Below, in pieces: positions 39,165-39,261 of a stretch of DNA of 64,000 nt (position 1 is its first letter; every line of letters begins with the position of its first letter). The DNA comes from an uncultured Pelagibacteraceae bacterium (GTDB lineage Bacteria; Pseudomonadota; Alphaproteobacteria; Pelagibacterales; Pelagibacteraceae). The notes beneath the pieces are model-generated. The model saw only the letters and a program-made list of their open reading frames with translations. It ran no database searches and was not told the origin of the DNA. A program made the position numbers and the translations under genes. The stretch lies in assembly GCA_902536385.1 (NCBI GenBank), contig CACAWY010000004.1, positions 54,068 through 118,067 of the forward strand. The letters are read 5' to 3'.

Positions 39165-39204
39165 TGATTTTCCCCCTTACTGTTTCTCTTACTGTCTCGT
39201 TCAT
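39157..39204 (-). CDS. Candidate 15-codon leader ORF (uORF2) MNETVRETVRGKING, overlapping the metY start
   Basis: GGAG with 5-nt spacing to ATG; its TGA (39157-39159) overlaps metY ATG (ATGGCTGA). Confidence 0.5.
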   Translation of the reverse strand: MNETVRETVRGKING

Positions 39205-39261
39205 TTTTTCTCCGTTTTTCTGGAGAAGTATGAACGAAGTTAAATTCTGTTCATCTTCTCC
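39198..39261 (-). promoter_or_regulatory. Alternative-hairpin region: segment 1 GGAGAAGATGAAC (39261-39249), segment 2 CGTTCATACTTCTCC (39236-39222), segment 3 GGAGAAAAAATGAACG (39213-39198)
   Basis: Segment 2 is complementary to both segment 1 (13 bp, 1 bulge) and segment 3 (6+7 bp); each partner contains a GGAG and an ATG. Confidence 0.65.
39240..39254 (-). CDS. Candidate 4-codon leader ORF (uORF1) MNRI immediately after SAM-V
   Basis: AAAAAGGAGAAG ATG AAC AGA ATT TAA; SD spacing is short, about 3-4 nt. Confidence 0.3.
   Translation of the reverse strand: MNRI

Follow-up and report, generated by a model that had tools for sequence, protein, structure and literature searches.

The leader between SAM-V and metY

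The window analysed here is a stretch of 64,000 nucleotides from an uncultured SAR11 bacterium of the family Pelagibacteraceae (contig CACAWY010000004.1, positions 54,068 to 118,067). Its minus strand carries, in this order, gshA-gshB, a SAM-II-like element, a terminator, a SAM-V riboswitch (SAM, S-adenosylmethionine), three short segments numbered 1 to 3 and metY (Table 1). The aptamer thus lies upstream of a methionine/SAM gene (metY; TIGR01326). The Shine–Dalgarno sequence (SD) of SAM-V does not serve as the SD of this gene with a start within about 10 nt: a four-codon upstream open reading frame (uORF1) follows it, and metY begins 90 nt past the aptamer/SD, with a purine-rich SD of its own (AAGGGGG) located within a second upstream frame, uORF2. 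This departure from the direct-SD layout changes the described mode of output and leaves the membership of the aptamer unaffected.

An earlier note on this DNA, made from the sequence alone, had described the three segments, both uORFs and the overlap of uORF2 with metY, and its sequences, coordinates and frames are all correct, as is its remark that the SD of uORF1 is closely spaced (only 3 nt between GGAG and ATG). Beyond that note, we observe the SAM-II-like element and terminator upstream, the same layout in other SAR11 leaders and the shortening of uORF1 in the window.

Table 1. Features of the metY leader and its surroundings in the window.
Feature	Position	Strand	Description
SAM-II-like aptamer	39432-39357	-	First half of tandem SAM-II/SAM-V leader; RF00521 match below gathering score
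Intrinsic terminator after SAM-II	39361-39332	-	Hairpin + T-run; terminator scan
SAM-V aptamer	39319-39255	-	RF01826, 74.3 bits (gathering score 41)
Proposed P2a	CC 39299-39298 with GG 39261-39260	-	GG = first two bases of segment 1; model from PMC6061858, our own mapping
Segment 1, GGAGAAGATGAAC	39261-39249	-	SAM-V SD + uORF1 start; partner of segment 2
uORF1, ATG AAC AGA ATT TAA (MNRI*)	39254-39240	-	Four codons, truncated compared with most relatives
Segment 2, CGTTCATACTTCTCC	39236-39222	-	Anti-SD common to segments 1 and 3
Segment 3, GGAGAAAAAATGAACG	39213-39198	-	SD + uORF2 start; proposed OFF state: hidden by segment 2
uORF2, MNETVRETVRGKING*	39204-39157	-	8-nt overlap ATGGCTGA with the metY start
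Hairpin AAAATCA-ATGGC-TGATTTT	39171-39153	-	metY start codon in the loop
metY, O-acetylhomoserine aminocarboxypropyltransferase	39164-37872	-	TIGR01326, 561.6 bits (cutoff 495.1)

Two exclusive helices, their balance and their conservation

In the window, segment 2 can pair either with segment 1 (1:2 helix, 16 bp, -18.6 kcal/mol) or with segment 3 (2:3 helix, 14 bp, -17.3 kcal/mol). The two helices are mutually exclusive, as the earlier note had claimed, and both the energies and shuffled controls agree with it: in 300 dinucleotide shuffles the middle segment never paired with both flanks as strongly, and the energy of the weaker partner was -10.0 in the best shuffle compared with -19.1 observed. 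The double complementarity of segment 2 lies far above the chance level. Two exclusive helices that hide or free an SD are also the hallmark of the sequestrator/anti-sequestrator platforms of other translational riboswitches. A role of either hairpin as a terminator was considered and rejected, as no U-run follows either of them and the scan finds the SAM-II terminator only.

Crystallographic work on SAM-V proposes that a helix of two pairs, P2a, forms with the first SD bases on SAM binding; an aptamer shortened by its final 2-3 nt, in the P2a region, no longer binds SAM in vitro, and binding has been demonstrated for relatives of the window aptamer (PMC6061858). We folded the window leader over the stretch that runs from SAM-V to inside metY, with the SAM-bound state approximated by forbidding the GG of P2a to pair. 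In the unbound state the computed probabilities of the two helices are nearly equal (0.50 for 1:2 and 0.48 for 2:3), and blocking the GG brings them to 0.001 and 0.963, respectively, while the openness of the SD in segment 3 falls from 0.28 to 0.005; the picture is similar at 20 °C. The shift to 2:3 that the earlier note had attributed to SAM is thus reproduced in computation, from about 50:50 to 96% 2:3, for this proxy of the bound state. Blocking the GG lowers the median openness of segment 3 from 0.52 to 0.008 in metY leaders (n=65), from 0.065 to 0.0005 in bhmT leaders of the window's genus (n=20) and from 0.59 to 0.03 in bhmT leaders of a second genus (n=16). Moreover, hybrid leaders given a foreign segment 1 switch half as often (29% compared with 59%). 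A bistable-hairpin RNA switch is thus well supported in silico.

The same anatomy, which we call a relay, recurs among relatives. Within the window's genus, the SAM-V search matched 132 of 169 genomes; with further loci added, 134 distinct leaders were inspected. Relay anatomy is found in 90 of the 133 SAM-V leaders of this genus (by automatic gene label 68 metY, 19 bhmT and three unlabelled, one of which is metY-like on inspection), the remainder being direct leaders in which the gene start lies right behind the SAM-V SD. For a second, cultured-type genus of the family, leaders were chosen by a pattern search (18 matches in 399 genomes): 17 of these 18 pattern-selected leaders have relay-type segments 1 and 2, and the other is a direct metY leader. 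Four distinct leaders among the 17 are without a bhmT gene and segment 3. One genome of the second genus (G252) has SAM-V matches inside the three intergenic regions listed for HTCC1062 (bhmT, metY and mmuM; PMC2704228) and is almost certainly HTCC1062; the HTCC1062-like bhmT leader reads GGAGAAAAGAGG, followed by CCTTTTTTCTCC and then by AAGAGGAAAAAAAATG. SAR11 bacteria have conserved the relay anatomy in two genera and at several genes.

Segments 1 and 2 coevolve. In a swap test on 19 clusters below 85% identity, segment 1 pairs better with its own segment 2 (mean -17.6 kcal/mol) than with swapped ones (-12.7 kcal/mol; permutation p = 5e-5), and the corresponding test for segments 1 and 3 gave no preference for the own partner. 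In an alignment of 13 second-genus leaders (L284 was left out as misaligned), the 1:2 helix is 88% paired with both-side changes in seven pairs, and its covariation score of 0.306 compares with 0.184 in shuffled alignments (0/500) and at most 0.182 in slid ones. Among the exclusive helices of this sequestrator/anti-sequestrator pair, compensatory change is therefore found in 1:2 and is nearly absent from 2:3. Covariation of both stems, the check suggested in the earlier note, was borne out for 1:2; the 2:3 helix is conserved with almost no covariation. This scarcity can be explained by the fact that 2:3 is made of SD letters, and it is proof neither for nor against the helix.

Upstream reading frames, the proposed mechanism and its alternatives

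Of 89 distinct relay leaders, 88 have a start codon for uORF1 behind the SAM-V SD, GTG in two cases, and in 82 of the 89 the frame continues beyond the SD of segment 3, which points to translational coupling. Relative to the next start, uORF1 ends at -4 in 51 leaders, at -8 in 13 and at -1 in one, and in nine it is in frame. Most relatives have a full-length uORF1 of about 17-22 codons that ends on the next start codon; the tiny four-codon uORF1 described in the earlier note proves to be the exception. The second frame, uORF2, is restricted to metY leaders, where its overlap with metY is -8 in 66 of 67 relay leaders, window included. The overlap had been read as a sign of coupling, and this conservation agrees: -4 and -8 stop/start spacings are enriched among coupled genes (PMC12548453), and a coupling spacing (-4, -1 or -8) is seen for uORF2/metY and, as -4 or -8, for uORF1 in most relatives, the window excepted. 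The relay first described for metY extends to bhmT leaders, which have no uORF2. In addition, the median minimum free energy around the metY start is -5.8 kcal/mol in relay leaders (n=67) compared with -1.1 kcal/mol in direct ones (n=41), which are without the small hairpin whose loop contains this start. A tRNA- or methionine-sensing attenuator was discarded, since uORF1 usually has no Met codon beyond its start.

What a ribosome on uORF1 would do depends on its position. In our models, an initiating 30S on the window uORF1 forces 2:3 and leaves segment 3 with an openness of 0.005. With a ribosome at the window uORF1 stop, the value is 0.005 to 0.44 according to the assumed reach of the ribosome, and it rises to 0.89, an open segment 3, when the ribosome stands within segment 2, as it would on a full-length uORF1. 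The suggestion that a ribosome on the window uORF1 frees segment 3 is thus not upheld, the initiating one driving the OFF state and the terminating one being ambiguous; given these modelled positions, it suits relatives with a full-length uORF1 more than it does the window. On the other hand, twelve relay leaders have no ATG or GTG start for uORF1 near the SD; they retain strong, covarying 1:2 helices, and in all 12 the unbound openness of segment 3 is 32% or more. Among bhmT leaders of the window's genus with a full uORF1, the majority favour 2:3. This suggests that the RNA balance is enough where uORF1 is absent and that translation of uORF1 is important where 2:3 is favoured. As the uORF1-less relatives keep the switch, uORF1 appears to be an add-on in some lineages. 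By anatomy, the uORF part is strong in the relatives and weaker in the window. One bhmT leader, in a V_ETNP Pelagibacteraceae metagenome-assembled genome (MAG; L098:1566-1644), keeps 1:2 and 2:3 and lacks the uORF1 start codon, in which it stands alone among the relay leaders in the set of the window's genus.

Anatomy, conservation, 1:2 coevolution and energetic balance come from sequence and computation, and from them we infer the SAM dependence, the role of the ribosome and the direction of control. We propose, with a probability of about 0.7, that SAM-V acts through a sequestrator/anti-sequestrator hairpin pair, and not by directly covering the SD of the gene. When SAM is absent, segment 1, the old SAM-V SD, would pair with segment 2, leaving segment 3 open as the working ribosome site. 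When SAM is present, the GG at the head of segment 1 would be held in P2a by the aptamer and the 1:2 helix would lose its base; 2:3 would then prevail and shut the downstream start (OFF). In most leaders of the genus, segment 1 would also start a uORF whose ribosome crosses both downstream segments, its stop usually touching or overlapping the next start codon, likewise an ON state, and in metY leaders uORF2 would pass ribosomes to metY through the -8 overlap. Because uORF1 is cut short in the window, the RNA switch together with uORF2-metY coupling is the likelier path there. More tentatively, and with rather less than even confidence, we envisage a hybrid of RNA and ribosome in which two bases tip a bistable hairpin, the threading of uORF1 turns a ribosome that would force OFF into an ON signal, and the second uORF with the start hairpin adds a coupled step at metY.

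Several observations weigh against this proposal. The pseudoknot and the energy of SAM lie outside the folding model, in which the ligand is reduced to a blocked GG. The swap test is weaker for 2:3 (p = 0.008 with the 19 clusters and 0.09 with a stricter clustering into 14), and in the 13 second-genus leaders this helix, 94% paired, shows zero double changes. Unbound openness is below 0.1, with 2:3 favoured, in 13 of 19 bhmT leaders of the window's genus, so that the RNA alone would be OFF there. The uORF1 stop lies ahead of segment 2 in 5 of 67 metY leaders (the window and four others). The hairpin at the metY start is weak, and the SD of metY might initiate alone. Finally, neither uORF1 nor uORF2 peptides show clear purifying selection, off-frame controls having similar ratios; position rather than peptide thus seems to be important.

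Some of these points would suit a relay made by translation alone, in which SAM-V occludes the uORF1 SD, translation of uORF1 opens 2:3 and couples onward, and 1:2 is a by-product of having two SDs. The near-universal uORF1 start, its passage beyond segment 3 in 82 leaders and its mostly -4/-8 endings are what this reading expects, as are the unbound 2:3 preference of the genus bhmT leaders and the opening of segment 3 by a modelled ribosome inside segment 2, and there is a precedent in Mycobacterium tuberculosis ppe2 (PMC11260477). Yet the twelve leaders without a uORF1 start keep a strong, covarying 1:2 helix, and five metY leaders, the window among them, have a uORF1 that ends before segment 2; we regard this reading as credible but unlikely. 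Far less probable is standby, or translation at a distance, in which the SAM-V SD recruits the 30S for a downstream AUG and the hairpins bridge the gap. Sinorhizobium meliloti metA needs the SD of its SAM-II riboswitch and starts 74 nt downstream (PMC9373788), and second-genus bhmT leaders have a GGAG some 70-80 nt before the start; however, SAR11 starts carry their own GGAG at normal spacing, and the complementarity of segment 2 to that SD would be superfluous. Ordinary direct control, with metY using its own AAGGGGG within uORF2 and the upstream repeats being debris of a duplicated SD, would match the description of SAM-V as acting directly on the ribosome-binding site (RBS; PMC9481103) but deserves the least credence given the conservation over two genera and several genes, the 1:2 coevolution, the conserved -8 overlap and the 90 nt that separate the SAM-V SD from the metY start.

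Neighbouring elements, known systems and significance

The SAM-II-like element of the window matches RF00521 with 22.5 bits (E 0.0054; gathering score 36) and resembles by eye the SAM-II of the HTCC1062-like bhmT leader. The SAM-II-like element contains CTAAAGCG (39381-39374), which complements CGCTTTAG (39355-39348) in the stem and loop of the terminator, and this pairing is a candidate antiterminator judging from the letters; both occur identically in the HTCC1062-like bhmT leader (L256). Four metY and mmuM leaders of the HTCC1062 genus (L259, L260, L270 and L258) have a SAM-II-like stretch, CCGATTTG...TATTGC.GGC...CTGCTAAAA, upstream of SAM-V with the terminator absent; in L260 and L270, the two checked, Rfam made no call on it. 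An association of relays with tandem SAM-II (83/89 compared with 6/45) was dropped, as the pattern was too strict and a looser one matches most direct leaders too. A P2a base C as a perfect relay marker was likewise ruled out by eight direct bhmT leaders with C.

Some leaders are atypical. The four of the second genus without bhmT (L262/L278, L276, L279 and L286) keep the SAM-II-like element, SAM-V and the 1:2 hairpin and have lost segment 3; SAM-V lies at about 1460-1520 of the 3 kb loci, no co-oriented gene of at least 60 codons begins for about 750 nt, and they may be either decaying leaders or free-standing small RNAs. In L069 (620-1066) and L170 a relay leader precedes an open reading frame (MIKQTPVGSLPRSPKLQEAYNAF...) with no Pfam match over 149 aa, which is possibly methionine-related. 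A Bdellovibrionales MAG (L105) carries a SAR11-like relay leader with a GTG uORF1 ahead of a metY-like start; the contig is probably misbinned.

The SAM-V riboswitches described in Candidatus Pelagibacter ubique upstream of metY and bhmT share with the window the aptamer, the genes, an expected translational OFF and P2a on the first SD bases (PMC2704228, PMC6061858). They differ in that the published output is a direct cover of the RBS beside the aptamer, whereas in the window the aptamer SD is one strand of the switch, with the gene 90 nt further on. The HTCC1062 bhmT tandem has a SAM-II-like element and a terminator ahead of SAM-V, as here; the accessible parts of its accounts do not mention a downstream relay or uORF, and a 2024 structural study concerns the linker between its two aptamers (PMC11508383). 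One of the two closest mechanistic likenesses is the M. tuberculosis ppe2 B12 riboswitch, which acts on a translated uORF with an AUGA overlap and termination-reinitiation to the gene (PMC11260477). It belongs to another aptamer class and phylum; SAR11 adds the exchange between 1:2 and 2:3 and, ahead of metY, a second uORF, and the uORF1 of the window falls short of the next start. The other, S. meliloti metA, is an alphaproteobacterial SAM switch with an SD far upstream of the start used, for which standby was proposed; in the accessible parts of that study an antisense segment common to two SDs is not reported (PMC9373788). Searches of the literature on SAM-V uORFs and expression platforms, a coverage that leaves out Poiata 2009 (SAM-V/tandem), found no description of the relay, in line with the earlier note. 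The relay is a conserved SAM-V expression platform that is previously undescribed in the literature searched.

The affinity reported for the bhmT SAM-V differs between studies (120 uM in PMC5069961 and 0.5 uM for a 52-nt RNA in PMC6061858); one explanation may be that segment 2 competes wherever a longer construct includes it. Should the relay be true, probing an RNA cut off at the aptamer leaves out the half of the switch that gives the output, and the bhmT leader of HTCC1062, on which in vitro work exists, lends itself readily to a test. SAR11 are among the most abundant cells of the ocean, and of their SAM-riboswitch genes, metY, bhmT and mmuM rise the most when reduced sulfur is short (PMC5069961). 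If true, the relay would touch the control of these methionine-making genes and would unite the riboswitch, its bistable hairpin and very short uORFs in one compact regulator of a streamlined genome.
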